A stretch of DNA of 64,000 bases. It comes from Pseudodesulfovibrio nedwellii. Its GTDB lineage: Bacteria; Desulfobacterota; Desulfovibrionia; Desulfovibrionales; Desulfovibrionaceae. The stretch covers positions 1,669,501 to 1,733,500 of the forward strand of contig NZ_AP026709.1 in the NCBI RefSeq assembly GCF_027923765.1, written 5' to 3'. Under the pieces are notes generated by a model. That model made no database searches. It was not told the origin of the DNA and was given only the letters and a program-made list of their open reading frames with translations. Within the stretch, counting starts at the first letter, position 1. Each line of letters begins with the position of its first letter. The position numbers and the translations under genes are program-made. Below are positions 25,920-47,388 of this stretch, piece after piece.

Positions 25920-28682
25920 TCAATTCACTGGATAATCGATTCTAACAGAGCATGCTTTGTATTCGGCCGTATCCGAAATCGGATCTGCAGCTGAATTAGT
26001 AAGCCAATTCGAATTATTCTTATAGAAATGAAACGCCATCCAAACCATTCCCTTAGGGACCTCATCCGTTACACGAGCTCGGACTGTGATGGTGCCACGC
26101 CTTGAGGTGAGTTGAATCATTTCACCAGTTTCAAAGCCCAACTGTTTGGCGTCAACAGGCGCGATATCGACTATTTCTTCGCTGAGCAAATCATTAAGTC
26201 CAATCGCGTTGGCTGTTTGCGAACTGCAATTGTAATGATAGAGTCTTCTGCCTGTACTCAAGATTAAAGGGTACTCCTTGTCAGGCGTCTCCGCAGATGG
26301 TGTCCAATCAACAGCTTGAAAATGAGCCTTCCCCTGTTTGAATTTTACGTCACGGAACAAATGCGGCGTATCCTTGAACAGATGCGGTGTACCGGGATGC
26401 AAAGAATGCGGAACCGGCCATTGCAACGATTCATTTTCCAATCGGTCATAGGTAATTCCATTCAGCATAGAGCATTGCGGCGCCATCTCATTGTCCCAGA
26501 TGTCCTGAGCACTGGAGGATTCCCAAGTGTCTCCCATGCGCTTTGCCAGCTCACGGAAAATCCACCAATTGGGCCGAGCCTCTCCAGGGGGAGGAGACAC
26601 CTTACGAACGCGGTTGACTCGACGTTCCGTATTAATGAATGTCCCGTCATCTTCGCTCCAGGCAGCGGATGGAAGAACTACGTCCGCATATTCGGTCGTT
26701 TTCGTAGGAAAGATGTCGTTACACACCATAAACTCGGCAGACGAGAGGCAACCGTGGACATGGTGCATGTCAGGTTCGGTTGTAGCCGGATCTTCACCGA
26801 AAACATAGAATCCACGAACCTTTTTTGTTTTCAAACCTTCGAGCATGGCGGGAAGCCGCAACCCCTCATAGCCGAGGAGGTTGCCAACATTCCACGCTTT
26901 TTGGAACTTCTTACGAGCAGCCGGGTTATGCACTTTCTCATAGCCGGGGAAAGAATCCGGCAGAGCACCTGCATCACATGCGCCCTGAACATTGTTTTGA
27001 CCTCGCAATGGGTTTACGCCCCCACCGGGTATACCAATGTTTCCAAGCAATAATTGCAAATTTGCGCAGCTGAACACGTTATGAACACCAGAAGTATGTT
27101 CCGTTATACCAAGAGTATATATAAGCATTGCGGGTTTTGATTCAGCCAACAGTCGTGCGAGATCAACGACTTGTTCAGCGGGAACTCCTGTGACCTTTTC
27201 GGCCTCTTCAGGAGTGTACCTGAGTACGGTTTCCTCAAGCTCATCAAAACCATCAACCCACTGCTCTACGTAATCCTTGTCATACAGATTTTCCGTGATC
27301 AAAACATTCATTATGGAGTTGATCAACGCGACATCAGAGCCGACTTTCAGCCGCAAGTGCATATTCGCCCACTCTGTAAGCTTGGTTGCCCGAGGATCAA
27401 CGACAACCAGTTTTGCACCTTTCTGAACGGCATTATGAACAAACGTCGCAACCACTGGATGGGCTACGGTCATGTTCGAGCCGATAACGAGTATTGTGCT
27501 CGCCTTTTCGATATCTTCAAAGTTATTAGACATTGCACCGGAACCAAGCATTGTCGTCAGACCGACGACCGATGGAGCGTGTCAGGTTCGTGCGCAATGA
27601 TCGATGTTGTTGGTGCCTATGGTCGCCCTAAAGAGCTTCTGCATGTTATATGAATCTTCGGTAATACTTCGGGCGCAACTCAAACCTGCAATTGCATCTG
27701 GACCGTATTCGTCACGAATCTCCATAAATTTGGAAGCAACAAGATCGAGAGCCTCATCCCATGACGCTTCCCTGAATTTCCCATTTTCCTTGATAAGAGG
27801 CGCTGTGAGGCGATTTTTGGAATAGATAAAATCGTATCCAAAGCGTCCCTTCACACACAATCGCCCCTTGTTTGGCGCAATATTTTCATCGGCTGTGACT
27901 TTGATGATCTTTTCGTCCTTAACGTGAAGGATCAACTGACAGCCAGTCCCGCAATATGGACATGTCGTCTGGACTTTTTTGACTTTTTTTTTAGTTATCC
28001 CAAGTGCTTTCTTGTCAAAAAGGGCTCCAACAGGACACGCCTCAATACATTGACCGCAATGGGTGCACTTTTCCATATCGACAGTTGGATGCCATGTTCC
28101 ATTAAAAGAATGACGGGAAATAGCGCTCTGGCCAATGTCCTGGCAGGTTGCGATGCATTGGCCGCATTTGATGCAACGACTATAATCTCGAGCAATAAAC
28201 GGAGAGCGATTGTCAACAACCGGCGTCTCAATTTCTAAGGGAACATCCCTAACAGGCACCTTGTGCTTCCCTGCCATTTTCTGAAGGACACACGCCCCTT
28301 TTGCCGGGCATTCGTGATCGTGCCACTCCATGTCCCTGGCTTCAAGATGGCCGGGTGCGCATTTCCCTTCCGGTAGCTTGGCTGTAAAACAGTTGTGCGC
28401 CCCGGTAGAAAAAATAGACGTCAATTTAGTTTTTCGAGCCTCAAAGACTTTGGGAGACTCGGTTGTGATGTTCAACCCTTCCACGGCAAGCGTGGTCGAT
28501 GTTGAAATCAACTCTCCCGTATCTATATTTTCAGCGATGCTGAGTTCACAACTATTGTCACAATAACATGTCTCGCTCTGGCACAAAGTCGGGATGCTGA
28601 TACCTGCCTGAGAGGCAACGTCCAGAAGTGTCTGATTCTCTCGGAATTCTATCTTCTTATCGTTTATAATGACGTGTCGCAT
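25920..28682 (-). CDS. fdhA: Selenocysteine-containing formate dehydrogenase alpha subunit, NuoG-like N-terminus
   Basis: The gene reads through an in-frame TGA (27582-27584) as Sec367, in the context CARTUHAPSV. This is the active-site signature of molybdenum/tungsten formate dehydrogenases. Upstream lie a 2Fe-2S domain (about 1-80), a His-Cys 4Fe-4S motif (about 85-125), two 4Fe-4S clusters (CIKCGQCIATC and CTHCGQCIEACP) and a further 4Fe-4S CPYCGTGC. Downstream lie the molybdopterin and MGD-binding domains, for a total of 920 residues. It has no Tat signal, so it is cytoplasmic, and oxidises formate to CO2. No NuoE/F-like partner adjoins. It should use formate released by AmiF, encoded in the same region. 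Confidence 0.94.
27545..27584 (-). promoter_or_regulatory. Bacterial SECIS element with UGA codon of fdhA
   Basis: Directly after the UGA the mRNA can form a stem GUCGU/ACGAC closed by a loop containing GGUCUG. The same apical GGUCUG loop occurs in the E. coli fdhF SECIS that binds SelB. The element lies inside the coding frame. Confidence 0.85.
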
Positions 28683-28739
28683 TGGTTATCCTTTGTATTA
28701 TATAAATAAAATATGTTATTCTGGAACTTTTATGCGTGG

Positions 28740-29258
28740 TTAAGACGCATCCTTTTTGAAAACGGAAAAAAACATTTCCATACAATGCTTTGAACAAAAA
28801 TCGAAACTTTCATCGATTCCACCTCCTGCGGGGACCTTGGTGAAACTATGCGATTCATCTTCTACAGCGTTGAAACGCATTCCACACTGATCACAAATTT
28901 TTATGTTGCTTGTAATAAAGGCACTGACGCAATTTTCGGAACACAACGGAATATCTCCCTGCGTTTCTCCATAAATACGTCTGCCACAAACATGACAAAA
29001 CACCGCTTCATCTGGTGACAAATTCAAAGCCCCTCCGCACAAAGGGCAAAAATTTGAAGGTCGGGATTCCACTGTATGGTGGCAATGCGGACAACTTGAA
29101 CGCAGAGCCGTTTTGCAGTGGGGGCAGGCGGAAGGTGCAACCGAATTTTCTGTCTCAATTGAAAATACGTTGAAATACGATTCTGGCTCATGTTTCGTAT
29201 TCAAATGAGGACAGTGAGGGTTGGGACAATACATATAAATCGAGTGGTCTTTTTTCAT
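28740..29258 (-). CDS. Multi-zinc-ribbon protein of unknown function
   Basis: These 172 residues contain at least six Cys-x-x-Cys or Cys-x-x-x-Cys pairs, including CPNPHCPH, CPHCKTAL, CPHCHHTV, CPLCGG, CHVCGRRI and CDQCGM. A C-terminal segment CSKHCMEMFF resembles a TRASH-type metal site. No catalytic motif is seen. It lies 57 bp upstream of fdhA and is probably cotranscribed, so a role in formate dehydrogenase maturation or redox coupling is possible but not shown. Confidence 0.75.
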   Translation of the reverse strand: MKKDHSIYMYCPNPHCPHLNTKHEPESYFNVFSIETENSVAPSACPHCKTALRSSCPHCHHTVESRPSNFCPLCGGALNLSPDEAVFCHVCGRRIYGETQGDIPLCSENCVSAFITSNIKICDQCGMRFNAVEDESHSFTKVPAGGGIDESFDFCSKHCMEMFFSVFKKDAS

Positions 29259-29283
29259 GGCATAACTAATTTTGCTAATGAGT

Positions 29284-29332
29284 TGATAAAAAAAGGCTGG
29301 AGATTAATGAGGCGATTGACCTCCAGCCTTTT
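29284..29332 (-). terminator. Terminator between the channel gene and the zinc-ribbon/fdhA genes
   Basis: On the minus strand AAAAGGCTGGAG pairs with CTCCAGCCTTTT and is followed by a run of T. It should separate the fmdB-channel transcript from fdhA, at least partly. Confidence 0.7.
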
Positions 29333-29400
29333 ATAAAAGCCGATCGATACCTTTAGATGCAGCTAGATGCTGTTCATCCCGAAACTATTTTCTCCAAAAA

Positions 29401-30393
29401 CTAAGGGTGTTTCAGATTGCTTTCGGGCGTACCAAGCATCTCTGCCGGAACCGCGGCTATATGACCAAAACCTTTGCTTGCGAACATAAACATCCAGGTA
29501 ACGATGACAAACGGCCACGTGAGTGACGGCATGCCGATGGGAGCAAGAAGTACGCTTATAGATGCCTGAGCTATGGAACCGATGATCATGCAGAAAGTCG
29601 CATAGAGAAATGTTTTCCAATTGAGATAATAAAAAAGCCCGCCCAATGCGATGGCACAAAGCACCGAGTTATAACCATACAATCCAAGACGAAGCGGGGC
29701 TTCTGGAGACTGCATGACCAAAGCGGTGAGCAGGCCAATCAGGGAGCCGAAAACCGCAAAGAATGCAGATATTCTGGAATTGACGAGGATGGCTATGACA
29801 AAGATAATTCCAGTGACAACGCTATCTTCGAACATGACTTCACCAACGCCTTTGGTCACGCCATCCAGGAAAGTCATTGCTGAAATTTTGCCAACGGAAA
29901 TCGTGGTGTGCGGATCAGGAATCGAAGTTGCCAGCAATGACCCAGCCTCCAGAATGCCGAACTTGGAAGCACAGAACATGAGAATCCAGGTGGCCAGCAC
30001 AAAGGGTGCCGTTAAAGCAGGCATGCCCCATTTGCCCAAAAAATTCATGAGTGCACTCATGATAATGGTACTGAGTGCAGCGTTGATAACCACGTAAAGC
30101 AACAACTCGGGGCTATAGACGAAATAAAAAGGCAGTGCGATACCCGCGAGTGTGCCGTTAAATCCGAACAACCCGGCCTTGATAAGACCTTTGTCCGCAC
30201 CAAGGGCTATGGCAACAAAGGTTGACGCGGCAGTCCCAAGAACAGCACAGAATCCCAATTCCCAGGAATTATAGAATATCCCTATAAAAAAAATAAAGCC
30301 GGTCACAGGGTTATTCTGAAACATGACCTGTCCGCATCCACGTAGGCATGCGTCTACAAATTGAAATAGCGAATTGTTTTTTGGCGCTTCCAT
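29401..30393 (-). CDS. Urea transporter family channel, probable short-amide (formamide/urea) channel
   Basis: The 330 residues form two homologous halves of about five helices each. The repeat is visible as [14 protein letters not shown] (Gln22) and [14 protein letters not shown]. These are the positions whose Gln and Glu line the selectivity filter in the D. vulgaris dvUT channel. UT proteins pass urea and small amides passively. No urease is present in the window, while a formamidase is. I therefore infer that formamide or a similar amide is the physiological cargo. The gene lies 40 bp after fmdB. Confidence 0.85.
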
Positions 30394-30433
30394 GATCGTT
30401 ATATCTCCTTGAATGATGGTGTGCAGGTGTTGT

Positions 30434-30667
30434 CTATACCGTTTGAGCTTCCAGTTCCTTTTTGAGCTTGTCGCGCTCCTGAGACTTGTGCATGGCGCTC
30501 ATCATGTTTTTCATCCAGTGATCAGCATGGCGGTAGGATGTGAGAGAAATGTATCTGTGCGTATCGGCGGAGCCACAATGAACACAGGGAATTGTCTCAT
30601 CGCTTGAGTGAGCGAGTGTTTCAAAATCGGTGTCGCAGCCGTTACAATGCAGTTCGTAGATTGGCAT
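30434..30667 (-). CDS. fmdB: FmdB-family zinc-ribbon protein
   Basis: The 77 residues start [18 protein letters not shown] and contain a second pair in CVHCGS, a single CxxC...CxxC zinc ribbon. This is the FmdB family, first named beside a formamidase operon and thought to be regulatory. The rest is helical and charged. It is the first gene after a -24/-12 promoter and leads the channel gene. The family is firm; the molecular role is not known. Confidence 0.88.
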
Positions 30668-30701
30668 AGTCTTCTCCGTGAAAAGGTTGTGACCTCTCTA
30701 T

Positions 30702-30717
30702 TGCGACAACTGTACCA
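30702..30717 (-). promoter_or_regulatory. Sigma-54 promoter of the fmdB-channel operon
   Basis: TGGTACAGTTGTCGCA on the minus strand has two mismatches to TGGCAC-N5-TTGCW, with exact GG/GC spacing. The start codon is 35 bp downstream. Confidence 0.7.
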
Positions 30718-30872
30718 ACTTCTAGAGAACTGATAAATGCATGGTTATTATGGATAAATTAAAATAATCACGAGAGGATTCAAAGAGAAGGGTTACAACG
30801 AAGATTGTTGTTTTAAGAACTGAAGAGAATGGAGTGCGAACTGAAAGGGCTGAGCCCTTACAATGAAATCGG

Positions 30873-30892
30873 TGGCTACAACTTTTCTTGTA
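30873..30892 (-). promoter_or_regulatory. Candidate enhancer site for the formamide response regulator
   Basis: On the minus strand the sequence is TACAA-GAAAAG-TTGTAGCCA, a dyad plus GCCA extension. The same arrangement occurs upstream of amiF. It lies about 155 bp upstream of the -24 element. Confidence 0.65.
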
Positions 30893-30956
30893 AGAGTTGG
30901 TTTGATACAATCAAAAATTTGCAAAAGAAAAACCAAAAAAACTTTGGATGGCAGAA

Positions 30957-31003
30957 TGCGTCAGAGCAATTTATCTCCATAAGAGACAAATTGCTCTGAC
31001 GCA
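30957..31003 (-). terminator. Perfect 16-bp inverted repeat after the response regulator gene
   Basis: TGCGTCAGAGCAATTT and its exact complement flank a 15-nt loop, 48 bp after the regulator stop. On the minus strand T-rich sequence follows about 15 bp later. It probably ends the kinase-regulator transcript. Confidence 0.65.
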
Positions 31004-31051
31004 CACATTTAATAATGGAACTCTTGGCTTTTTTTCTATGAGGATAAATGT

Positions 31052-32485
31052 TTAATTATTTATTTTCTTGAGCTTAAGACTCAATGACTGTTGCGAAATA
31101 CCAAGTATTCGTGCGGCGGCACTCTGATTTCCACCAGACCGTTCCATGGCTGTATTTATGAGTGTTGTAGATATTTTTGTAACGACTTCTTTAAGCGGGG
31201 GAAGGCTTTCAGGCGAAAAATTCACCGTATCCCACGAACTGGTTTCTTCAACATGAGGTATCACTCCCCCAAGTGAATCTTCGCTGTGGATATGATTCTT
31301 GAAACTGGCTGAAGACAACATGCGTGAACAATGCTGACTCACGGCATCACTGGCCATAGCTTTCAACTCTCGCACATTCCCAGGAAACGAGTATGTCCGT
31401 AAAAAGTTTATGAGTTCAGGATGGTATGCTGGCTTCTTCTTATCTTGTTCAGTTGCCTCACATTCCAAAAAATAATCCAAAAGCAGGGAGACATCATCAA
31501 GCCTTTCGCGCAATGGGGGGAGCGTAACCTGATGGCCGACAAGTCTATAATAGAGATCTTCCCTGAACTTCCCTTCTTGTTTCAAGGTGGACAAATTCTT
31601 CAATGTTGACGTCACGACGCGGACATTGGCTTTTTTAGGAAGGTCAGAACCGACCGGGAAATATTCTTGTTCCTGCAACAATCGCAAGAGTTTTACCTGC
31701 GAACTCAGGCTCAGGTCTCCAATTTCATCAAGAAACAGAGTACCTCCATTGGCCTGCTCGACCAACCCTTTGCGCGCCTTATCAGCACCTGTAAATGCTC
31801 CACGCACATGACCAAATAAAGAATCCGCAAAAACCGGATCATCAAATGCAGCCACATTCACTGCCACAAATTCACCACAGCGCATGCTCAGATGATGAAT
31901 GGCCTGAGCAATCAACTCCTTGCCAGTTCCGGTCTCCCCTGTAATCAAAATGGGATTCTGACTACCAGCCACCGCTTCACAATATTTGAAGATAGAAAGC
32001 ATTTTGGGATTTTGCGTAAGAATTTTTGAGAACATTTCCGGGTGTTTCAGTTTGGTCTCAAGGATTTGTTCACGCAGTCTAGCATTTTCCTGTTCCATGT
32101 CCTTAAATTCGAGCGTGCTCCTCACCCTTTTCGCCAATTCGGTCTTGTCTACGGGTTTAAACAAGTAATCTCTGGCTCCGTCCCTCATACATTGTATAAC
32201 TGATTTCCCATCACTAATTGCTGAAACAATAATGATGGGAATCCATGGATATTTTTCTTTGATCATCTTAAGTAAAGCAGGCCCACTAATATGAGGCATC
32301 ACTAAATCGAGTAAAACAAGACTGAATTGTTTTTTCTTCATCAAAGACATAACCGTTCTACTGTCATCACAAGTGATTACATTTGAGTAACCAGATGCAT
32401 ACAAGGCTATTTCGAAACTTTGCAACGCAGATTTCTCATCGTCGACAACAAGAATCGGATGTGAAGGACACAAATGATTTTCCAT
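31052..32485 (-). CDS. NtrC-family sigma-54 response regulator of the formamide module
   Basis: The 477 residues comprise a receiver domain (about 8-122, phospho-acceptor Asp60), an AAA+ domain with Walker A GETGTGKE (183-190), the sigma-54 contact loop GAFTGA (229-234), GGTLFLDEIGD, and a Fis-type helix-turn-helix at the C-terminus. It follows the permease-kinase gene by 28 bp, a typical two-component pair. It should activate the -24/-12 promoters of fmdB and amiF from the shared upstream motif. Confidence 0.93.
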   Translation of the reverse strand: MENHLCPSHPILVVDDEKSALQSFEIALYASGYSNVITCDDSRTVMSLMKKKQFSLVLLDLVMPHISGPALLKMIKEKYPWIPIIIVSAISDGKSVIQCMRDGARDYLFKPVDKTELAKRVRSTLEFKDMEQENARLREQILETKLKHPEMFSKILTQNPKMLSIFKYCEAVAGSQNPILITGETGTGKELIAQAIHHLSMRCGEFVAVNVAAFDDPVFADSLFGHVRGAFTGADKARKGLVEQANGGTLFLDEIGDLSLSSQVKLLRLLQEQEYFPVGSDLPKKANVRVVTSTLKNLSTLKQEGKFREDLYYRLVGHQVTLPPLRERLDDVSLLLDYFLECEATEQDKKKPAYHPELINFLRTYSFPGNVRELKAMASDAVSQHCSRMLSSASFKNHIHSEDSLGGVIPHVEETSSWDTVNFSPESLPPLKEVVTKISTTLINTAMERSGGNQSAAARILGISQQSLSLKLKKINN

Positions 32486-32513
32486 AACTCACCTCATTTA
32501 CAATCTATTGTAA

Positions 32514-35500
32514 TCAATTGGAGCCTGTGAAAGACAGGGTTACGCATGTTCCTTGTCCCTCTTCTGAATCGATAAAGATATCACCGCCATGCTCCTTGAT
32601 AATTCCCGCTGAAACAGACAAACCAAGCCCAGTGCCGCCCCACTCTCTTTTCGTCGTATAGAATGGGTCCCTAACGTGCTTGAGGTCTTTCTTTGAAATA
32701 CCAATTCCCTGATCTGTTATTTTAAAATAGACCTTTTCTTCTATTGCGTAGGTCTCAATGAGAATAGAATTCTCTCGTGATTTCAACGCTTGACAAGAAT
32801 TTTGGATCAAATTGACAAGGACTTGTTCGATCCGACGCAAATCGCCTTTGAACAAAGGCAGACAGTCATTAATACTTATGACAAAGTTATCCGTGCTGTT
32901 CTTTATGAGATTGGTAAGCAGCATGTGGGCAGACCTGAAGGCCTTGTTGATATCCACATCTCCACCCATTTTGACCGGAGATTGTCTGGAATAATCTTTC
33001 AAATTTCGCACAATAGTTGAAACACGATCAGACCCCTCGTTAATACCGAGAAGCAATTTGGGCATGCTTTTCTGAACATAGCTCAAGGGCAAGTTTCCGA
33101 TCCAGACTTCTTCACCCTCTTCATTCTGCTGTCTGAGATATTCCATCATGCCTTGCCATATCTCATCCATTGTTTGAGAATTCAGGCTGATGAGATTCAA
33201 AGGATTGTTGATCTCATGTGCCATGCCAGACACAAGAATTCCAAGAGATGCCATCTTGTCTGCCTGATGCAAGGATTTGTAGCTCTGTTCCAATTCTTTG
33301 GTCCGCTTCTGGATTTTTCCTTCAAGACTTTCGTTCAATTCCTTCAGTCGCTGCCTGTTTTCCTTCAACGCTTTATCGGCTTTCTTTTGTCGATTGATAT
33401 CATTCAAAAGCCAGATAACACCCTGACTGGGGTTACCGGAATCAATGGCGCTGATGGAAAGTTTGCGCCACTCACTCTCAGTCTGATTCATTTTCAAAGG
33501 TATTTCGCAATTAAAGTGCCTTCCTTGTCTCAAGAAATTCTCAGAATCTCTTTCGATTCTTGAATATAAAGTCTTATCGAGGAAGAGATCTTTTGTTGCG
33601 ATTGGTCTTTTGGTGCCCCTTGGAACGAAACAAATGTCAAGGAATCTATTGTTACACCACTTCAATTTAGAGTTAACTATAAATGCAATACCTATAGTGG
33701 CATTCTCCAAGATCATTTTTTGTTGTTTGCTTGTCTTATTTAGTTTTTCACTGATCCTTTTACGGGCATGAACTTCTTGCTCTAATTCATCAATTTGAAT
33801 AGCAAGCTCTTCCTCAACTTCAATCCGACGTTCCTGGATCAAGGTAAACCACCAGACCCAGACAGCGATAATAAGAAGTGTAAAAATGTATATTGTTATG
33901 ACGTACCATTTAAAATTGTGCCATATTTGATAATTTGTGTGTTCAGAAAGAAATACACTTGAAGAAAACACAACACCAAGAACAACAGATATGATGAGAT
34001 AGTGTTGAAGAAATCTTTTCGTTTTCTTCATGAAAGCTTCTTTTGGAGAGGCCACATGCTTTCTTTGTTTTTTTAAATCTATATCTTCGCATTTTCCACC
34101 ACAGATACTATCCAGAACACAGCACAATGAACAAATATGATTACCACGCATAGGGCAGTATACCATTTCACTCTGTCCGTATTGTTTTTCACAAATTGGA
34201 CAGGTCATTAAAGTGTCACTCTGCAAAATGGTATTTTCTCGACGTATATAATACTTACCCTTTGTCAAAATAGCGACCAATGGTGCAACGGTAAATGCAA
34301 CAGAAAATGCAATCAGTGTTGAAAAAGATTTTCCGTATATACCAAAGAGACCAAAATATGCAGGAATGGCTGTAGCGAGTGACACTAAAAGAGAAATAAT
34401 ACCAACAGGGTTTATATTATAAAGATATGCACGTTTGTATTCGATAGTTCTCGGAGCAATCTTGAGGGGCTTAATAACTGTTAAGTCAGCGACAATCGTA
34501 CCGATCCATGACAATGCAAATATGGCATAGATGAAAAGCATGGAATGCATTGTCTTGAATACACCCAGTTGCGCAAAAAGAATTGACATGAGGATATTGA
34601 ACAAAAGCCAAACAGCCCTGCCCGGATGGCTTCCTGTTATTCTTGAAAAGAAATTCGACCATGCGAGTGACCCGGCATAAGCGTTCGTCGCATTTATTTT
34701 GACCTGACATATAACAATATACAATGTCACAAGAAGCAATGCATACTGAGGGTTATCAATTACTGTGTCATACACGTTGAGATAAAGTTGAACAGTGTCA
34801 ATACTTTCACTGCTCACGACATTCCCCGCCTCAATGAACAACACAACGAGAAAAGCGCCGCAAAGAATTTTCAATGCACCAATGATGATCCAACCGGGCC
34901 CGGCCGTCAGTACTGCCAGCCACCATTTAAATTTGTTCTCATCCGTTTTGTCAGGAAGAAAACGCAGATAATCAACCTGCTCTCCGATTTGTGGAATTAA
35001 TGAAAATAAAACAGAGAGAGCGGAACCAAACAGAAAGGGATCAAATGAGCCTGTGCCCACATGGTTTTCGTATGAAATCCATCGAGTAACGCTTTCGGGA
35101 TCTTTGAAAATGATAATGGCTATGGGAACAATCCAGAGAAACAGCCAAAGAAATTGCGTATAATTATGCAGCTTATTGATGACCGTTATTCCATAAAATG
35201 AAAAAGGAATGATCACCAACGAACAGAGCAGGTATCCAATAGGTAATGGAATCCCAAAACAAAGAAATACCGCTTGCGCCATGATCGTTGTTTCAATGGC
35301 AAAAAATATTATCGTAAAGAATGCATATATAAGTGAAGTAATTGTGGAGCCAATATATCCGAAACCTGCTCCACGAGTCAGCAAGTCGATATCAATATTT
35401 TCTTTTGATGCATGATAGGCAATTGGAATACCCGTAAGAAAGATCACTACGCCCAAGGACAAAATTGCCCAAAGTGAATTGGCAAATCCGTAGTTTATAA

Positions 35501-35678
35501 TAAGTAATGCACCAATCGCTTCCAGAGCAAGAAATGAAATACCCCCGAGAGCTGTACTGGCAATCTGCCATTCTGGCCACCGTCTGAACGCTTTGCTTAC
35601 ACGTCGCAAGGAGAAATCTTCAATGGCCGTGTTAGTGACCAACAGGTTGTATGTTCTTTGCTGCCTGGATGTGTTCAC
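32514..35678 (-). CDS. Histidine kinase fused to an NCS1-type permease domain
   Basis: The 1054 residues begin with a permease-like domain of about 12 helices (about 35-475) resembling NCS1 cytosine/purine transporters. A Cys-rich zinc-ribbon-like segment follows with eight Cys between 493 and 530, then two further helices (about 556-612), a coiled coil and a PAS domain (about 655-765). HisKA with His821 (GMAHEINNP) and HATPase (about 905-1050, GGTGLGLS) complete it. Transporter-fused kinases such as CbrA sense a solute through the transporter part. Here a small amide is the likely ligand, by neighbourhood. The start is GTG. Confidence 0.9.
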   Translation of the reverse strand: MNTSRQQRTYNLLVTNTAIEDFSLRRVSKAFRRWPEWQIASTALGGISFLALEAIGALLIINYGFANSLWAILSLGVVIFLTGIPIAYHASKENIDIDLLTRGAGFGYIGSTITSLIYAFFTIIFFAIETTIMAQAVFLCFGIPLPIGYLLCSLVIIPFSFYGITVINKLHNYTQFLWLFLWIVPIAIIIFKDPESVTRWISYENHVGTGSFDPFLFGSALSVLFSLIPQIGEQVDYLRFLPDKTDENKFKWWLAVLTAGPGWIIIGALKILCGAFLVVLFIEAGNVVSSESIDTVQLYLNVYDTVIDNPQYALLLVTLYIVICQVKINATNAYAGSLAWSNFFSRITGSHPGRAVWLLFNILMSILFAQLGVFKTMHSMLFIYAIFALSWIGTIVADLTVIKPLKIAPRTIEYKRAYLYNINPVGIISLLVSLATAIPAYFGLFGIYGKSFSTLIAFSVAFTVAPLVAILTKGKYYIRRENTILQSDTLMTCPICEKQYGQSEMVYCPMRGNHICSLCCVLDSICGGKCEDIDLKKQRKHVASPKEAFMKKTKRFLQHYLIISVVLGVVFSSSVFLSEHTNYQIWHNFKWYVITIYIFTLLIIAVWVWWFTLIQERRIEVEEELAIQIDELEQEVHARKRISEKLNKTSKQQKMILENATIGIAFIVNSKLKWCNNRFLDICFVPRGTKRPIATKDLFLDKTLYSRIERDSENFLRQGRHFNCEIPLKMNQTESEWRKLSISAIDSGNPSQGVIWLLNDINRQKKADKALKENRQRLKELNESLEGKIQKRTKELEQSYKSLHQADKMASLGILVSGMAHEINNPLNLISLNSQTMDEIWQGMMEYLRQQNEEGEEVWIGNLPLSYVQKSMPKLLLGINEGSDRVSTIVRNLKDYSRQSPVKMGGDVDINKAFRSAHMLLTNLIKNSTDNFVISINDCLPLFKGDLRRIEQVLVNLIQNSCQALKSRENSILIETYAIEEKVYFKITDQGIGISKKDLKHVRDPFYTTKREWGGTGLGLSVSAGIIKEHGGDIFIDSEEGQGTCVTLSFTGSN

Positions 35679-36088
35679 AATCTTACCTCGATCTCACTGA
35701 CGGCCCGACGGCTCCACAGAAAGACTCAAACTTCTTCATTCAATCTCGTACAATCACGAATCCACGTCTTTCATCCGTAAAATATTTCGTCATTTTGAAA
35801 ACCATTTCATATAAAGACGCCTCTTGCTTTTCAATCTGACGATGTATCCGCATATGCAAAAGCCAGCCCAATGATCCCCATGATAGATTTAACGTCATAA
35901 TTCACACACAATTTCATGGCATCGTGTGATAAAATGTATATTAAATCATTCTTTCTATACCAGAAGCACCTTAAATCATTGATGAAAAAAGACTGCTATT
36001 CTTAATGTGAATTTTACTTCTTTTCAAGCTCTTCACATAAAAAATGACTTTCATTTAACGCAGTAATCCAGAACCCCCACAAGTATCG
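35679..36088. other. Divergent intergenic region, kinase side
   Basis: About 410 bp upstream of the kinase gene. No coding frame is supported. A kinase promoter must lie here but none was recognised. Confidence 0.5.
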
Positions 36089-36118
36089 TTGTAGCTACAA
36101 TTGTCCTTGTAGCCAGAA
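36089..36118 (+). promoter_or_regulatory. Candidate enhancer sites upstream of amiF
   Basis: The perfect palindrome TTGTAGCTACAA (36089-36100) is followed after six bases by a partial copy, TTGTAGCCAGAA. The TACAA-N6-TTGTAGCCA core matches the fmdB site and lies about 140 bp before the -24 element. Confidence 0.7.
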
Positions 36119-36256
36119 TGATCCCTTTGCTACGGGGATTTTTTGGGATCGCGCCAATGTACGCACCACGATATTTGTAGGTTGGAAGTCCCAAACAGCG
36201 TCAGCTTATTTAATATAGTCGAATATTTTCAATTAGTTATGTCGTTTCACCGGCAA

Positions 36257-36272
36257 TGGCACGATAATGGCT
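36257..36272 (+). promoter_or_regulatory. Sigma-54 promoter of amiF
   Basis: TGGCACGATAATGGCT has one mismatch to TGGCAC-N5-TTGCW. The start codon is 92 bp downstream of it. Confidence 0.8.
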
Positions 36273-36363
36273 CTAAGGCAATGAGCGCTCAAGAGTTTCT
36301 GTATTAAAGATTGCCAATATTCGCGATCTTCATAGCAATTCACTAATTAATTGGAGGTTTTAA

Positions 36364-37368
36364 ATGGGAAGCATCGGCAGCATGAATCGTCCGACTGAAG
36401 GTATGCTCATGGGTTTGGTCCAATACCCTGTGCCCATTGTTAACTCGCGCCGCGACATCGAAGCAAACATCGACAGAATCTGTGAAGCCACAGTAAACAC
36501 CAAGGCCGGCTATCCTGGCATGGATCTGATCGTATGGCCGGAATATAGCTCGCAGGGGCTGAACACAAAGAAGTGGGTCAGCGATGAATTCCTGCTTGAT
36601 GTCGAAGGCCCTTTGTTCCAGCGTTATGCTCAGACCTGTAAGGAAAACGACATCTGGGGCCTGTTCTCTCTCATGGAGCGCAACCCCAACAAAGATCAAA
36701 TGCCTTACAACACGGCTGTTATCTTCAACAACAAGGGCGAACTTGCCCTGAAATATCGCAAACTGAATCCGTGGGTTCCCATCGAGCCTTGGATGCCCGG
36801 CGATCTCGGCCAGCCCGTATGTGACGGCCCCGGTGGCAGTAGACTTTCCGTTTGCATTTGTCATGACGGCATGTTCCCCGAGCAGGCTCGTGAAGCTGCT
36901 TACAATGGCTGCAACGTTTACATTCGCATTTCTGGCTACAGCACCCAGGTCAACGACCAGTGGATGCTGACCAACCGTTCCAACGCTTGGCAGAACCTGA
37001 TGTACACCGCTTCAGTTAACCTCGCCGGTTACGATGGCGTCTTCTATTACTTTGGTGAAGGTCAAGTCTGCAACTTCGACGGCACCACCATTCAGCAGGG
37101 TCATCGTAATCCTTGGGAAATCGTCACCGCCGAAGTTTTCCCGAAGATGGCAGATCAGGCACGCAAGGACTGGGGCCTGGAAAACAACATCTACAACCTC
37201 GGTACCCGCGGTTACGTAGCCGTTCCCGGTGGAGTAAAGGAATGCCCCTACACTTGGGTCAAAGATTTCGCTAAGGGTGAATACAAGTTGCCCTGGGAAG
37301 ACGACATCAAGATCAAAGACGGTTCCATTTACGGATACCCGACAACCGGTGGACGCTTCGGCCTCTAG
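36364..37368 (+). CDS. amiF: Formamidase AmiF
   Basis: The 334 residues match the H. pylori formamidase in length and in most motifs, including the start MGSIGSM and the end [10 protein letters not shown]. The nitrilase triad is exact: Glu60 in WPEYSSQ, Lys133 in LKYRKLNPW and Cys166 in CICHDGM. AmiF hydrolyses formamide to formate and ammonia in the cytoplasm. The aliphatic amidase AmiE is excluded by the AmiF-specific ends. GGAGG lies 7 bp before the ATG. The gene is transcribed away from its likely regulators from a sigma-54 promoter. Confidence 0.96.
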
Positions 37369-41061: not shown

Positions 41062-41787
41062 TCAAAAACAGGAAAACATGGTGTATGTTCCAGAGGTAAC
41101 AATAAGAAGAAGCAGAATATTTCCATACGCCCTCTGCGAAAGGAAACGAGATATGAAAAGTCCTGCGGCACCACCTATTAAAGCTCCGGGGCAGCCTGCG
41201 GCATAGTAAGTTAGCGTCTGGATGTTATGAATGCCTGCCAGCACCTGCCCGGCTAGTATCGTCACACCAGTCATAATGAAACACGCTGCAAGAACACCTT
41301 TTGCTTCCTCTTGTGACCAACCCAATTTGAAAACATACATGGCGAGCGGCGGACCGTTAAAGCCGAAAAGTGCACCGAGTGTCGTGGAAGCAAACCCGGC
41401 TAATACGCCCCAACCAGGTCCGAGTCCCGTGTGAACTTTTTTGGGTGCCAGCAACCAATACCCAGCATAGGCGACCATGAATATTCCCATGCCTAATTTG
41501 AGCGTGTTATTATCTGTAGTCTGCATGAGCTGGAGGCCAAAGACAGTCCCTGCAACCCCACCGACAAACAGATATCGTAACCGCTTCCATTTGATGTAAT
41601 GACGATAGTTCCATCCCATCTGAAGATTCAAAGTCAGTACGATGAGCGTTGATGTCGGAACCGCTATTTCAAGGGGAACCAAAGCCGCAATAAAAGGCAT
41701 GGCAACCATGGCTGCCCCGAAACCAGTTATGTTGTTAACGAAGCCTCCGAGAAACCATGCGAAGAAAAAAATCAGGGTGTTATGCAT
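41062..41787 (-). CDS. TSUP family membrane exporter (TauE/SafE-like)
   Basis: The 241 residues form about seven to eight membrane helices with the two TSUP repeats, including NNITGFGAAMVAMPFIAAL and the matching second-half segment FGFNGPPLAMYVFKLG. TSUP proteins move sulfite, sulfoacetate and related anions. The -24/-12 element and palindrome just upstream tie it to the sulfonate module. It may handle a sulfonate or released sulfite. The predicted transcript would start only 2-3 bases before this ATG. Confidence 0.83.
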   Translation of the reverse strand: MHNTLIFFFAWFLGGFVNNITGFGAAMVAMPFIAALVPLEIAVPTSTLIVLTLNLQMGWNYRHYIKWKRLRYLFVGGVAGTVFGLQLMQTTDNNTLKLGMGIFMVAYAGYWLLAPKKVHTGLGPGWGVLAGFASTTLGALFGFNGPPLAMYVFKLGWSQEEAKGVLAACFIMTGVTILAGQVLAGIHNIQTLTYYAAGCPGALIGGAAGLFISRFLSQRAYGNILLLLIVTSGTYTMFSCF

Positions 41788-41799
41788 GGGATTCGACCA

Positions 41800-41815
41800 A
41801 GCAATTACCTTGCCA
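41800..41815 (-). promoter_or_regulatory. Sigma-54 promoter of the TSUP gene
   Basis: TGGCAAGGTAATTGCT on the minus strand has one mismatch to consensus. It lies 13 bp before the TSUP start codon and 61 bp from a GTTGYR-type palindrome. Confidence 0.65.
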
Positions 41816-41875
41816 AATATTTATCGAAGGGTCCGCTTGCCCCACTGAGGACTTTGTGACAAAGTGCACTATTCT

Positions 41876-41891
41876 GTTGCAGCACCGCAAC
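41876..41891. promoter_or_regulatory. Activator-binding palindrome, copy 1
   Basis: GTTGCAGCACCGCAAC fits GTTGYR-N4-YRCAAC. It lies between the divergent TSUP and activator genes, so it may also affect the activator itself. Confidence 0.65.
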
Positions 41892-41939
41892 AAGCTGTCC
41901 TTCAACACACAGGGCTCACCTCTTCAAAAGTATGTTATT

Positions 41940-43313
41940 ATGATTAACAAATATTGTTCGCAAATCATTGAAACAATGGAAGAAGCTGTTTCCATCAGTG
42001 ACCCGGACGGGGTTATTCTCTATTTGAATAAACGGCATGAATTGATTACCGGCATTCCGTCTTTTGAACTGCTTGGCAAATCGGTACATGAATTAGTGCG
42101 CCGAGGACTGTTCGACGTTGTTTTGAATCCTGACATTATGCGCAACAAGCAATCCGAAACACGGGTGCAAGAACTCGGCAATGGACGTAAAGTGGTGCTT
42201 GATGGACACCCGGTATTTGACGAAAATGAAGAGGTTGCACTTGTTGTCACTTATCTTCGTGATATTACAAAACTAGCTGAAATGCGTGAACAAATGTCTT
42301 CTCAACAGGAACTTCTGGAGGCTTATCAAAAACTCCAGAGCTTTGACAGCGCCCTTGAAAAGGTGCCGCCAGTTGTTCAAAGCAAACCTATGAAGCGATT
42401 ATACGGCCAGTTGGGAATTATTGCAGAAACAGATGCCACGGTCTTGCTTCTGGGGGAAACTGGCGTCGGCAAAGATGTTTTTGCACGTAAGCTGCACAGG
42501 CTGAGTGACCGAGCTGACAAAGCGTTTGTAAAGGCTGATTGCGGCAGTATGCCGGAGAATCTTATTGAAACGGAACTGTTCGGCTATGCTCCGGGCACAT
42601 TTTCCGGTGGAAATAAAAATGGTAAAATTGGTCTCATCGAAACGGCTTCCGGCGGCACACTCTTTCTTGATGAAATAGGGGAATTGCCGCTGCTCATGCA
42701 GACGAAACTGCTCAGGCTTCTACAGGACAGGGAAATCGTTCGCGTTGGAGCAACCACACCTCAAGATGTAAACGTCCGCATTGTTGCTGCAACCAATAAA
42801 TCACTGGAAAAAGAAGTTGAAGCCGGCCGGTTCCGCAGTGACTTGTACTATCGTCTAAAAGTCGCGGTTATCGACATCCCACCCTTGAGAAAGCGTAAGG
42901 CCGATATTTTGCCGATGGCGCGTCTTTTCTTGAAATCTTTTTGTCAAAAATATCAGCGGGACATAACGTTCACCCAGGAAACGGAAGACTCATTGCTCAA
43001 TCATACATGGCCTGGCAATGTCCGAGAATTAGAGAATCTGATTCTTGGTTGCGTGGTGACGTCCAAAAAGAATATTATAGAGGTGGCGGACTTGCCGTTT
43101 TCCCCGACCACTGAGATACGTGTTTCCACCGGAGACGGATTGGACGGTATGAAAATATCCGGAAAATCCATGAAGAGTATTCTCGATGAAGTGGAAAAAA
43201 CCATTATATTGAACGGAATGGAGCGTGTGGGCAATATCGCCAAGCTCGCCAAGGAGCTGAACCTTGACCGCACCACTGTGTTTCGCAAACTCAAGAAATA
43301 TGGAGCGCGATAA
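41940..43313 (+). CDS. PAS-domain sigma-54-dependent activator of the sulfonate module
   Basis: The 457 residues comprise a PAS sensor (about 8-110), an AAA+ domain with GETGVGKD (172-179), GGTLFLDEIGELP and a Fis-type DNA-binding helix-turn-helix ending RTTVFRKLKKYG. The sigma-54 contact loop is an unusual GTFSGG (219-224) instead of GAFTGA. There is no receiver domain, so the PAS domain should sense a metabolite directly. ATG at 41940 is chosen; the longer frame upstream runs through the operator. It is flanked by genes with -24/-12 promoters. Confidence 0.9.
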   Translation: MINKYCSQIIETMEEAVSISDPDGVILYLNKRHELITGIPSFELLGKSVHELVRRGLFDVVLNPDIMRNKQSETRVQELGNGRKVVLDGHPVFDENEEVALVVTYLRDITKLAEMREQMSSQQELLEAYQKLQSFDSALEKVPPVVQSKPMKRLYGQLGIIAETDATVLLLGETGVGKDVFARKLHRLSDRADKAFVKADCGSMPENLIETELFGYAPGTFSGGNKNGKIGLIETASGGTLFLDEIGELPLLMQTKLLRLLQDREIVRVGATTPQDVNVRIVAATNKSLEKEVEAGRFRSDLYYRLKVAVIDIPPLRKRKADILPMARLFLKSFCQKYQRDITFTQETEDSLLNHTWPGNVRELENLILGCVVTSKKNIIEVADLPFSPTTEIRVSTGDGLDGMKISGKSMKSILDEVEKTIILNGMERVGNIAKLAKELNLDRTTVFRKLKKYGAR

Positions 43314-43418: not shown

Positions 43419-44342
43419 TTATGCATTTCGAAATCTGTCGTTGGCCTCTTTCTCCAGCGGACGCAGTTTTCCCATAATTTCTGTGTCGAGGGCCTTGCCT
43501 TCGTAAGGGAATTCCATGCCGAGGTATGCGTATTTGGGCTGGCCCATGCGATGATAGGGAAGCAACTCGTATGAGATGTTCGAACGTACCGGAATAAAAT
43601 CGATGATACTCTGAATTTCCTCGATGGTATCGTTGAACTCAGGAATTATCGGCGTGCGGACCAGGATGGGCAAATTCGGAAAATCGTCCACCAGACACTT
43701 AATATTGTCGAGAATACGTCGGTTGCTGACACCGGTACCCTTCTTGTGTTTCTCATCGTCGTGGGCTTTTATATCAATAATCAGTTCATCAAGAAATTCA
43801 CAGACGGCCTTAAGGTCTTCATAGGAAGCGTAACCGCAGGTTTCCATGGCGGTCTTGATACGGCGTTTCTTTGCTTCCTTGAGCAATGCCAGCGCAAATT
43901 CTGGCTGGGACAAAGCTTCACCGCCGCTCAGGGTCATCCCTCCGCCTGACCGGGCGTAAAAGGCCGCTTCTTTTTCCACTTCATCTATCACCGCGCCAAC
44001 AGTCATGGTTTTGCCATAAACACACAAGGCATCGGAAGCGCAATTGTCCGCGCAAGTATGACATTGAACACACTTTTCAGGATCAATGGCTATCAGCTTA
44101 TCTTCGGTAGCAGAAATAGCGCCTTCAGGACACATTCGTATACATCGAGTACATTTGTCGGTGGTCAAACATTTGCCCGGGTTGTATCCCATCTGCGGCT
44201 TCATTTTCTGCGACTCGGGGTTGCTACACCAAGCACAGCGAAGCGGGCATCCTTTCATGAACACAATGGTTCGAATGCCAGCTCCATCATGCACGGAAAA
44301 ATTCTGGATATTGAAGACAATGCCTTCGTTTAGTTTACTCAT
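43419..44342 (-). CDS. Glycyl-radical enzyme activating enzyme (radical SAM)
   Basis: The 307 residues have the radical SAM motif in GCPLRCAWCSNPE (CxxxCxxC) and a ferredoxin-like insertion with two 4Fe-4S clusters (CTRCIRMCP and CVQCHTCADNC). GGGMTLSGGE supplies the SAM-binding GGE. Such activases abstract hydrogen from the glycine of their partner enzyme. The partner gene lies directly upstream in the same orientation, with an intervening hairpin. The gene should belong to the lyase transcript. Confidence 0.93.
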   Translation of the reverse strand: MSKLNEGIVFNIQNFSVHDGAGIRTIVFMKGCPLRCAWCSNPESQKMKPQMGYNPGKCLTTDKCTRCIRMCPEGAISATEDKLIAIDPEKCVQCHTCADNCASDALCVYGKTMTVGAVIDEVEKEAAFYARSGGGMTLSGGEALSQPEFALALLKEAKKRRIKTAMETCGYASYEDLKAVCEFLDELIIDIKAHDDEKHKKGTGVSNRRILDNIKCLVDDFPNLPILVRTPIIPEFNDTIEEIQSIIDFIPVRSNISYELLPYHRMGQPKYAYLGMEFPYEGKALDTEIMGKLRPLEKEANDRFRNA

Positions 44343-44429
44343 GACTGTTTCCTTTCTTGAGTATGAAATTCTTTAAGGCCGGGAAAAAGCGTGCAATGCG
44401 TAGTGGCAGCCCCGAAAGTTCAATAAAAT

Positions 44430-44458
44430 GCGGGGAGCAGGCAAAGCCCACTCCCCGC
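44430..44458 (-). terminator. Intercistronic hairpin between the lyase and activase genes
   Basis: GCGGGGAG pairs with CTCCCCGC over 13 nt, just after the lyase stop, with no U-tract. It could lower activase expression or protect the lyase mRNA. Confidence 0.5.
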
Positions 44459-44473
44459 GATATAGTCTATCAG

Positions 44474-46945
44474 TTACATTTGTACGTGTTCGGTACGATT
44501 GATGATGTCGTTCTGCAAATCGCGGGAAAGATCGCAGAAATATGCGGAGTAACCGGCGATACGAACGAGCAGGCTGCGGTACTTGTCAGGATTGGCCTGA
44601 GCTTCGAGCAGAGTCTTTTTGTTGATGATGTTGAACTGGAGATGCCAGAGGTGCAGGTCGCACCAGGTACGGATCAGGTCAACGAGCTTCTGAGTACCGG
44701 CTTCACCTTCGACAACTTTCGGAGAAAGCTTGACGTTCAGCAAACGAGATGCCCGATTTTTCATGCCACGGTTCTTGGAATGGTAATTGGACATCAGAAC
44801 TGCGGTGGGGCCTTTTTGGTCTGCACCGTGGGATGCGGAGGCACCGTCGGACAGAGCGGTCCATGCTTCACGACCATTGGGGGTTGCGGAAACAACCTTA
44901 CCGAAAGGTACGTGAGAAGTGATGGGCACGTAACGAACGTCGAGGTTCACGCCGCGTTCTTCGGAGTACTTATGAGCGTATTCCTGGCAAACGCAGTCAA
45001 TTTTCTTGGCAATTGCGTCAGCGTAGGAATCATTGTTTCCGTAGCAAGGAGCGGAACGAAGGATCTCGCGAGTTTCTTCGTGCCCTTCGAAGTTCACCTT
45101 CAGGGCGTCTACGACTTCCTGCATCGTCAGCTTCTTGTCTTCGAAGACCAGCTTTTTGATAGCGGAAAGAGAGTCGACCACGGTGCCGTAACCAAGGAAT
45201 TCAAAGTAGGAATACTCAAGGCCGCCCGGAATGGTCTGACTCTGCAAGTCCATGCCTTCTTTCATGCACAGGTCGTGCAGGACGGAAGCCAGGGGAGAAG
45301 CAAAGTGTTCGGGACGCAGACTATCAACGATGTACTGCTGACGGAAAGCTTTCACGAGCAGATTGTTGTGCTGCTTCAGGTAAGCTTCATAGAATTCGTC
45401 CCAGCTCTTGAACTCACCAGCCTCACCTGTTTCGAGACCGACAACTTCTTCACCGTACTTAAGCATGCGACCATTATGCATGGTCATTTCCATGGCAGTG
45501 GCGAAGTTGATGTAAACACAACCGGAAGTGTAGGTCTCGCAGTTGGGCATACGGGCTTCGGTGCAACCGGACACGGAATAGTCCATGGCCTGATCTAACG
45601 GTGCGCCCTTGGCGGTGTACAGCGGAATGATTTCTTCGTCGTTGATGAGTTTCGGGAAACCGGAACCATCCTTGATGGTCTCAGCAATCTCAGCGAGGAA
45701 ACGCTCGGGAGAGTTGGAATGAATACGAGTTGCGAGGTCAGGGTAATTCAACGGGAACTCACGCTTGGACTCAAGGAACAAGTAAGTAAGTTCGTTGGTT
45801 GCATCATCACCGTCCGGGGTCTGTCCACCGATAGTGACAGCTTCCCAATGAGCATAACCTTCATTGAATTCGTTGCCTGTAGGGTTGATGTACAGATCAA
45901 TGAACTGAGCCATTTCGACCCACATATTTTCCAGAAGTTCCTTGGCCTGTTCGGGAGTCAAAATGCCGGCCTTAATATCCTGCTCGTAGAAAGGAAGCAG
46001 GTACTGATCCATGCGACCGTTGGAGATGATGGCGGAAGCCTTCTGCTCAATACGGGAGAACATCTGAACGAACCATTGGGACTGAATAGCATCGCGGAAG
46101 TCTTTTGCAGGTTCGGCAGGCATGCGTTCACAACGGTCTGCCATTGCAAGCAGTTCGGCCTTGCGGATCTTATCGGTCTCAGCTTCTGCCTGCTCGCGGG
46201 CGAGGTCGGCGTGACGACGTGCCCAGAGGACAATAGCATCGCAGATGATAACCATGGCTTCATAGAAAGGACGTTTTTCCCAAGTCTGAACAGGACTTTC
46301 AGCGTCCAGCTCAGCCATTTTTTCAAGAGCTTCGCGTTTGATGTCGTTGAAGCCGCGCTTCAGGACCTTGTCGTAGTCATGTACCCACTGGAGAGCGGAA
46401 CGGTAAGAAGACGTCTCGGAAACAACAAATTTGGACTTCAAGCCATGGTCGTCGTCGTAGGTGACACCGCGCAGGTCGTCAGGCATGGCGCCGTTCAGGT
46501 GCTCATGGTAGGTCTTGCCTTCCCAGTAAGGAGCGATCTCGTTGACAACGATGTCTACTTCTTCAGGGGTAATCTTGAAGGGACTCTTTTCGCGCTTGTC
46601 CAGATCCTTGAGGATGGAGTAAAAATCACCATCGATTTCAGGGTACAGGATGCCGTAACGACCCAGCTTACCGGAACGACCGGCGATGAGGGATTTAGGG
46701 GTGATGTATACGGACATCTTCTCAGCGCAGTTTTTCAACGCCTTGGCCCAACGCAAAACGAGGGGCTGACCTTCGGTCTTCTTCATGGATTCGGTAAAAA
46801 AGCGGGCGCGTTCGATATCAATAAACGGGGTGGTCATATGAAAGGAATCAAGCATTTCGTATACGCGTTCACGGCCCTCTCGGGTATCAACGCTATTCGC
46901 GATACGCTCTTCCTGTGGGGAAAGACAGCAGTCATAGTTCGTCAT
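44474..46945 (-). CDS. Glycyl radical enzyme, sulfonate C-S lyase type (isethionate or dihydroxypropanesulfonate lyase-like)
   Basis: The 823-residue enzyme has the C-terminal glycyl radical motif RIAGYSAYF (Gly798) and the active-site Cys461 and Glu463 in [10 protein letters not shown]. With an offset of seven, Arg182, Gln186, Trp367 and Arg671 line up with the residues I recall as sulfonate-binding in isethionate lyase (Arg189, Gln193, Trp374, Arg678). These suggest release of sulfite from a small hydroxy-sulfonate. The position matching Phe682 is Ile675, so dihydroxypropanesulfonate or another substrate is possible. ATG at 46945 has AGGAG upstream, and a perfect -24/-12 promoter lies 94 bp before it. 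Confidence 0.86.
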
Positions 46946-47038
46946 GATGGTTCTCCTGGTGAATGAAATTGTGTTAAACTCAATATTTTTTTGCCAATGT
47001 TGTGTTAAATCCATGCGCTCAAAACGCTATTCACCATG

Positions 47039-47054
47039 AGCAACTACAGTGCCA
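47039..47054 (-). promoter_or_regulatory. Sigma-54 promoter of the glycyl radical lyase
   Basis: TGGCACTGTAGTTGCT on the minus strand is a perfect match to TGGCAC-N5-TTGCW. Confidence 0.88.
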
Positions 47055-47133
47055 AACGCGTAACGTGTTGATTTTTAAAGATTATCTTCTATACCCTCAT
47101 TATCTCCCCCCCCTTGAGAAAAAAAGCACTTGT

Positions 47134-47149
47134 GTTGTACCCATACAAC
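47134..47149. promoter_or_regulatory. Activator-binding palindrome, copy 2
   Basis: GTTGTACCCATACAAC fits GTTGYR-N4-YRCAAC exactly. It lies 80 bp upstream of the lyase promoter and 240 bp upstream of the amidohydrolase promoter. Confidence 0.65.
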
Positions 47150-47192
47150 AATCTGCTCAAATCAAGATAAATATCAATAGTTTATTAACACT

Positions 47193-47208
47193 GTTGCACT
47201 GTTGCACA
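47193..47208. promoter_or_regulatory. Activator-binding palindrome, imperfect copy 3
   Basis: GTTGCACTGTTGCACA keeps the first half-site and a partial second. A further TTGCAAC half-site follows at 47219. It sits midway between the two divergent sigma-54 promoters. Confidence 0.45.
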
Positions 47209-47388
47209 GCGTGATGAATTGCAACCAAATGCGAAGATAAGTATGCGACCGAAAGACCTGAGGGAATTTTAATGAACAAAAAAAACGTCTGGTGCATATA
47301 TTTTATGTAATGGGCTGGTAAATCGGGACGTGAATATTGTCACAGAAAGATAAAAGAGAGTCTGAACAGACAAGAAAGCAGCCGTGCA

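Follow-up and report, generated by a model that had tools for sequence, protein, structure and literature searches.

The 64,000-nucleotide stretch of the Pseudodesulfovibrio nedwellii genome analyzed here (NZ_AP026709.1, positions 1,669,501 to 1,733,500; referred to below as the window), which comes from a closed genome of 3.76 Mb (G000), carries a formamidase (AmiF), an FmdB-family zinc ribbon, a UT-family channel, a sigma-54-dependent response regulator and a histidine kinase fused to a permease of predicted NCS1 fold. We found that these five parts form one conserved unit. It is reasonably probable that they represent a two-component amide-utilization regulon, whose sensor is the NCS1-fold permease joined via an eight-cysteine linker to the histidine kinase. 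Judging from gene content, formamide is probably what this permease-kinase detects, switching on the UT channel and the breakdown enzyme. A preliminary description of this DNA had named the same parts, including the catalytic triad of AmiF, together with a selenocysteine (Sec) formate dehydrogenase, and all these assignments were confirmed by family scores or fold. Outward from 36.3 kb, amiF is located on the forward strand, and the permease-kinase, the regulator, FmdB, UT, a second zinc-ribbon gene and the formate dehydrogenase run divergently on the reverse strand. The genes of the cluster, except for the dehydrogenase, are as follows.

36364..37368, forward strand: amiF, formamidase of the CN-hydrolase family (NF009803, 2dyu alignment, catalytic residues)
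32514..35678, reverse strand: sensor histidine kinase with GTG start (permease part, linker, HisKA, HATPase_c)
34089..34202, reverse strand: eight-cysteine linker C493-C530 of the kinase (cysteine conservation and spacing)
31052..32485, reverse strand: sigma-54-dependent response regulator (receiver, AAA+ and Fis helix-turn-helix by Pfam; GAFTGA)
30434..30667, reverse strand: fmdB, FmdB-family zinc ribbon of 77 amino acids (TIGR02605, PF09723)
29401..30393, reverse strand: UT-family urea/amide channel (PF03253, TIGR03441, 3me1)
28740..29258, reverse strand: zinc-ribbon protein of 172 amino acids (PF12773, 29.4 bits, cut-off 27.3)

Occurrence of these genes was analyzed in 288 genomes from 44 genera of the family Desulfovibrionaceae. 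In an even sample of 199 genomes of the family, the full-length kinase and AmiF were detected in an identical set of 8. AmiF was present in 12 of the 288 genomes, representing 6 of the 44 genera. The permease-kinase profile matched 13, i.e., the same 12 and G145 (L038 / L153), which has a stand-alone permease relative (585-amino-acid frame, ~40% identity, no kinase) and lacks AmiF. UT was found in 36 genomes, with identity of at least 66% only in the 12 AmiF genomes and at most 39% in the others. The sigma-54 regulator was present in all 12 clusters, as was the zinc-ribbon gene at 28740-29258 (reverse strand), which had been missed in the preliminary description; FmdB was seen in 11, the cluster of G077 being broken across two contigs. 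The chance of two sets of 12 coinciding among 288 genomes was 10^-20.7, a value that ignores kinship and is far less extreme once kinship is considered. Comparison of synteny across the family, which had been proposed as a check, revealed a conserved cluster in 12/288 genomes, with the exception of the formate dehydrogenase (5/12). In a phylum-wide sample, the kinase profile was detected in only 2 of 395 genomes (the window's own and G069), so the amide system is sparse in the phylum. In a quick tree, nine kinases of sulfate reducers grouped with that of a Neomarinimicrobiota metagenome-assembled genome (99% SH-aLRT); the deeper order was not fixed. The contig of the latter (L050) has a kinase and a sigma-54 regulator (the regulator 59% identical), both of the sulfate-reducer type, beside what by eye is a metal-type ABC transporter.

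The regulator has the features of an enhancer-binding protein, i.e., a receiver domain, a sigma-54 activator (AAA+) domain with GAFTGA and a Fis-type helix-turn-helix. The following candidate sites were found upstream of amiF and fmdB (no strand is assigned to the palindromes).

36257..36272, forward strand: sigma-54 (-24/-12) element of amiF, TGGCACGATAATGGCT
36077..36094: putative enhancer palindrome 1 before amiF, CCACAAGTATCGTTGTAG
36095..36112: putative enhancer palindrome 2 before amiF, CTACAATTGTCCTTGTAG
30876..30893: putative enhancer palindrome 1 before fmdB, CTACAACTTTTCTTGTAA
30793..30810: putative enhancer palindrome 2 before fmdB, TTACAACGAAGATTGTTG
30702..30717, reverse strand: sigma-54 element of fmdB-UT, TGGTACAGTTGTCGCA

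A strict sigma-54 element was located 97-113 bp upstream of amiF in 12/12 loci and ~50 bp upstream of fmdB at 8/8 starts scored. At least one exact ACAA-N6-TTGT palindrome was present within 400 bp upstream of amiF in 10 of the 12 loci and upstream of fmdB at all eight starts; among the three fmdB genes outside this count, the palindrome preceded those of L036 and L192, and only a degenerate version that of L037. Altogether, 31 copies occurred in 8,000 bp upstream of amiF and fmdB versus 13 in the remaining 264,973 bp of the loci (ratio ~79). In L033-L035, palindromes were also found ahead of the gene for the zinc-ribbon protein, and L034 and L035 have a strict sigma-54 element there as well. 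The longer form, YNACAA-N6-TTGTNR, had 19 places in the whole genome, 4 of them at the amide cluster, versus 31 for a reversed control. Since this total is below the control, the signal lies in the position of the palindromes and not in their number. When 14 of the 15 other places were examined, 3 were near a sigma-54-like element scoring 9/11 and none had the palindrome upstream of the element; with the same scoring, the amiF element reached 10/11 and the fmdB element 9/11. A half-site, TTGTAGCCA, was also tried as the mark of the regulator and rejected (35 genome places versus 38 for the reversed control), and the palindrome was used instead. The sigma-54 elements and common palindromes upstream of both transcription units support a predicted regulon of amiF and fmdB-UT, and lend strong genomic backing to the core of the earlier proposal, namely that the permease-kinase and regulator are tied to both amide entry (UT) and breakdown (AmiF). 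That these genes are functionally unlinked and adjacent by chance is scarcely credible: the evidence is from sequence only, but the 12/12 co-occurrence, kept gene order and common promoter sites far exceed what is expected for unrelated neighbors.

AmiF scored well above the curated formamidase cut-off (NCBIfam NF009803, 605.7 bits, cut-off 406), with the aliphatic amidase model giving a lower score (232.3 bits). Its residues 1-333 gave a gapless alignment with 2dyu (phmmer, 590.8 bits), a solved formamidase that we take to be the Helicobacter pylori enzyme. E60, K133, E141 and C166 were all found in AmiF, and Glu60, Lys133 and Cys166 are presumably the catalytic positions of AmiF formamidases. 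AmiF is thus predicted to hydrolyze formamide. FmdB was assigned by TIGR02605 (42.0 bits, cut-off 31.3) and Pfam Zn_ribbon_8 (PF09723, 44.1 bits, cut-off 34.4), and the channel by PF03253 (326.4 bits, cut-off 25) and TIGR03441 (286.8 bits, cut-off 274.6). The solved chains closest to the channel were 3me1/3k3f (461 bits), presumably UT of Desulfovibrio vulgaris. FmdB and the 172-amino-acid zinc-ribbon protein may both have roles within the amide regulon. FmdA-type formamidase was not found in the whole genome, and a whole-genome search for urease alpha gave zero matches, in agreement with the preliminary description. The latter result bears on the identity of the ligand. The same circuit might respond to urea or another amide (acetamide, cyanate-like), or the sensor might read transport flux or nitrogen state, and both UT and the UrtB-type transporters found with relatives of the kinase (see below) carry urea names. 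However, with no urease match in the genome and AmiF nearer to the formamidase than to the aliphatic amidase model, we regard such a ligand as unlikely, albeit deserving of some weight.

The kinase consists of the permease part (residues ~1-480), the linker (493-530), a further hydrophobic stretch recognized by eye, and HisKA and HATPase_c domains assigned by Pfam. The predicted fold of residues 1-540 was closest to the cytosine transporter CodB and the hydantoin transporter Mhp1, which suggests an NCS1 fold. The linker appears as a strand-rich segment whose eight cysteines were invariant in 43/43 rows of one alignment and 31/31 rows of another, and their spacing pattern was present in 78 of the 80 named loci (the best 80 relatives described below). 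No Pfam family exceeded its cut-off in the linker, and profile and fold comparisons, in which RING/PHD/B-box-like two-metal types were considered, gave a weak resemblance to zinc fingers. In one closed genome (G663), the permease-kinase (L191, 11304-14473) was split into overlapping frames of residues 1-70 and 71-1054; amiF, UT and promoter sites were intact despite this frameshift. In view of the resemblance to CodB and Mhp1, the sensor might bind a classical NCS1 ligand (nucleobase, hydantoin or allantoin), with the amide genes handling breakdown products. This is very improbable, because no nucleobase or hydantoin genes were found in the conserved neighborhoods, where the recurrent partners were amidases.

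More general support for an amide sensor came from other bacteria. When the permease-linker alignment was compared with 84,980 species genomes, at least 480 stretches were found to encode a relative, and the best 80 of those were analyzed. This set is biased (many Bradyrhizobium) and includes three genomes of the family that figure in the counts above. Among the matches listed, the closest named relative of the kinase was from a Pseudodesulfovibrio metagenome-assembled genome (L047). On the best 80 pieces, an amidase of any type was present in 58 (FmdA in 53, AmiE-type in 31 and AmiF in 2), a UrtB-type permease in 61, a LuxR-type receiver regulator in 64 and a sigma-54 regulator like that of the window in 4. 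Among the 63 pieces that extend at least 8 kb upstream of the kinase, amidases and UrtB-type permeases each occurred in 54. Relatives from outside the family shared 47-57% identity with the window's protein in the permease-linker region versus 17-27% in the stretch after the linker, indicating that the receptor is kept and the output changes. This retention of the sensor while other parts are swapped is indirect evidence for an amide sensor, so that the proposed sensing of a small amide by the permease gains genomic support from many other bacteria. Many distant bacteria have relatives of the permease-kinase encoded next to amide-degrading enzymes of other kinds, so this type of amide sensor may be widespread. 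We tentatively suggest, with slightly less than even confidence, that transceptor histidine kinases sensing short-chain amides make up a broad class, as yet unnamed, with the NCS1-fold permease and eight-cysteine linker as their receptor. On this view, the receptor would stay constant from phylum to phylum while the amidase (AmiF, FmdA, AmiE), uptake system (UT or urea-type ABC), transmitter and regulator (sigma-54 or LuxR type) vary, and sulfate reducers would differ even in how formate is disposed of (by a carrier or a Sec formate dehydrogenase). What makes the system most interesting is found beyond the window: a receptor of transporter origin is conserved, and the amide-use genes that accompany it vary.

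Some relatives had other surroundings. The kinases of L054, L055, L060, L063, L064 and L105 (Campylobacterota, cyanobacteria and Thiotrichaceae) had no amidase or UrtB-type permease in at least 8 kb upstream, and that of L051 (Pseudanabaena) adjoins genes resembling nitrate reductase and an ABC importer. These seven kinases may have ligands other than amides.

Several observations weigh against an amide-sensing regulon of the proposed kind. First, 6 of the 12 genomes belong to one genus, so the co-occurrence counts are not independent. Second, the amiF promoters of L037 and L192 (2/12) lack an exact palindrome. Third, residues 1-540 of the kinase matched 0 Pfam families at E≤1, including Transp_cyt_pur, presumably the family expected for NCS1 transporters; membership in NCS1 was thus seen in the predicted fold and not in Pfam comparison. 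Fourth, 22 of the best 80 relatives, including those of Campylobacterota and some cyanobacteria with other neighbors, had no amidase on the piece, and the sensor family may therefore have other ligands. Finally, D. vulgaris can use formamide as nitrogen source, yet mutants of its formamidase-annotated gene DVU1164 showed no phenotype in pooled fitness data, all with |fitness| < 0.5 in the available text of the report (PMC10102598). A pooled assay with common ammonia could mask a DVU1164 phenotype.

Under the amide-sensing reading, formamide or a close small amide would bind the permease-like domain, and phosphate would pass from the kinase to the sigma-54 regulator, as gene order and domains suggest. 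The regulator would then bind the observed ACAA-N6-TTGT palindromes and activate amiF and fmdB-UT via their sigma-54 promoters. The amide would enter via UT and be split by AmiF into ammonia and formate, as expected from the families observed. Formate may then be removed by lineage-specific parts, i.e., a carrier (7/12 genomes) or a cytoplasmic-looking Sec formate dehydrogenase (5/12). In the window, the features related to the latter are as follows.

25920..28682, reverse strand: selenocysteine formate dehydrogenase alpha (UGA 27582-27584; TIGR01591, Sec motif)
29288..29328, reverse strand: terminator-like hairpin GGCTGGAG...CTCCAGCC with a run of seven T after it, separating UT from the zinc-ribbon gene (by eye)

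The dehydrogenase scored 817.7 bits with TIGR01591 (cut-off 666.25) and had one in-frame UGA (CART-U-HAPS, U367), and a tRNA-Sec gene (78.7 bits) was present elsewhere in the genome. A small hairpin at 27553-27569 (reverse strand), 12 bases 3' of the UGA, has the loop GGUCU, which in our view resembles the apical loop of a Sec insertion sequence; recognition of such an element by folding was rejected, as its stability was no better than that of shuffles (92 of 200). The terminator-like hairpin was absent from the listing of a scanner whose loop limit was 8. In five genomes (the window's, G651, G654, G663 and G185), all of one genus, with the window's and G651 of one species, the dehydrogenase gene lay next to that of the zinc-ribbon protein, and an MFS carrier was not found on the pieces examined. 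In the other seven (G665, G077, G028, G060, G032, G069 and G160), an MFS carrier directly followed amiF and no such dehydrogenase was found on the pieces examined; G665 was of this type though it belongs to the same genus as the former five. Another molybdopterin oxidoreductase in L032, a locus of the carrier type, had 27% identity and was not counted. This pattern, with a carrier in one version and a dehydrogenase in the other next to formamidase, would fit alternative formate outlets. Two MFS carriers were tested: both passed the L-lactate MFS model NF049980 (415.3 and 416.2 bits, cut-off 320), and neither reached the cut-off of the oxalate/formate antiporter models TIGR00890 / TIGR04259 (186.7 and 204.8 versus 374.85). 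The carrier was therefore rejected as an established formate exporter, and because curated models favor an L-lactate-type carrier, its role as formate outlet is one that we infer.

The preliminary description had placed formate oxidation in the regulon, with amide sensing, uptake, cleavage and formate oxidation under one control. The dehydrogenase does adjoin the cluster in all five genomes of the window's type, it is the sole one in the genome above the TIGR01591 cut-off, and exactly these five genomes lack the MFS carrier of the other seven, which hints at a common task of handling formate. However, the five represent one genus, the genome has three more Sec formate dehydrogenase-like genes, and the dehydrogenase is behind the terminator-like hairpin. 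Also, no palindrome or sigma-54 element was found upstream of the zinc-ribbon gene or the dehydrogenase in the four genomes of this type checked, the only exception being a weak pair of GG-N10-GC matches in L191. Joint control is thus improbable, and this part of the earlier description did not hold. Missing from the examined pieces of 7/12 genomes and having no common promoter sites, the dehydrogenase was rejected as a core member; it is a lineage-specific neighbor.

To our knowledge, ligands are known for only a few of the histidine kinases whose sensors derive from transporters. CrbS and RpuS are, like CbrA, SLC5-STAC transceptor kinases. The window's kinase is similar to CbrA in that a LeuT-fold-type transporter domain is combined with a histidine kinase and a nutrient would be sensed for its own use genes, but its transporter part appears to be nearest to NCS1 and not SLC5, and the eight-cysteine linker seems to stand where CbrA has a four-helix STAC domain, as described in the accessible part of that report (PMC13022988). 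In Ks-Amt5, an Amt-fused ammonium sensor kinase, a transporter-type module was likewise recruited to sense a small nitrogen compound, whereas its transporter fold and ligand, according to the text available, are unrelated (PMC5764959). With regard to amide genes, the fmdCABDEF cluster of Methylophilus, inducible by formamide and urea, also combines formamidase, the putative regulator FmdB and amide/urea uptake; it differs in having FmdA in place of AmiF and an ABC transporter and porin in place of UT, and the accessible part of the review names no sensor kinase (PMC10781810).

The preliminary description knew of no system joining these parts. In D. vulgaris Hildenborough, a link of a two-component sigma-54 regulator to a formamidase-annotated gene was in fact reported: Kazakov et al. 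assigned DVU1156 the target DVU1164 under amide metabolism, and stated that DVU1156 has no orthologs in Desulfovibrio spp. (PMC4641369, in the portion available), and Rajeev et al., in the corresponding portion, gave no functional prediction for it (PMC3333781). The available text of these accounts differs from our proposal in listing a single target, DVU1164, and naming no sensor, UT, FmdB or ligand (PMC4641369, PMC3333781). DVU1156 may be orthologous to the regulator in the window. The open-access literature searched revealed neither a kinase of NCS1 fold nor a permease-kinase that senses amides, but such a protein may be in print elsewhere (subscription papers or supplements). The system thus adds an NCS1-type example to transporter-kinase fusions, and its regulator-formamidase link was partly anticipated in D. 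vulgaris. The permease-kinase would explain that link, which is so far without a sensor in the literature searched. It would also supply the missing sensor for the use of formamide and short amides, known for decades to be substrate-induced, as in Methylophilus (PMC10781810, in the part available). In this family, genomic evidence strongly predicts the class of ligand, the receptor is conserved, and the readout is compact, with just two promoters; the conversion of a transporter fold to a nutrient receptor is therefore directly testable.

The window had no Rfam match and no tRNA (ARAGORN). Elsewhere in it, the region 43419-52910 encodes a glycyl radical enzyme of the sulfopropanediol dehydratase type (44474-47014; NF048011, 1504.6 bits, cut-off 1000) and its activating enzyme, with a sigma-54 activator (41757-43313) and a TRAP transporter (49030-51898) nearby. 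An integrase-like fragment at 55082-55570 (reverse strand) resembles, by eye, an IS3-type transposase.

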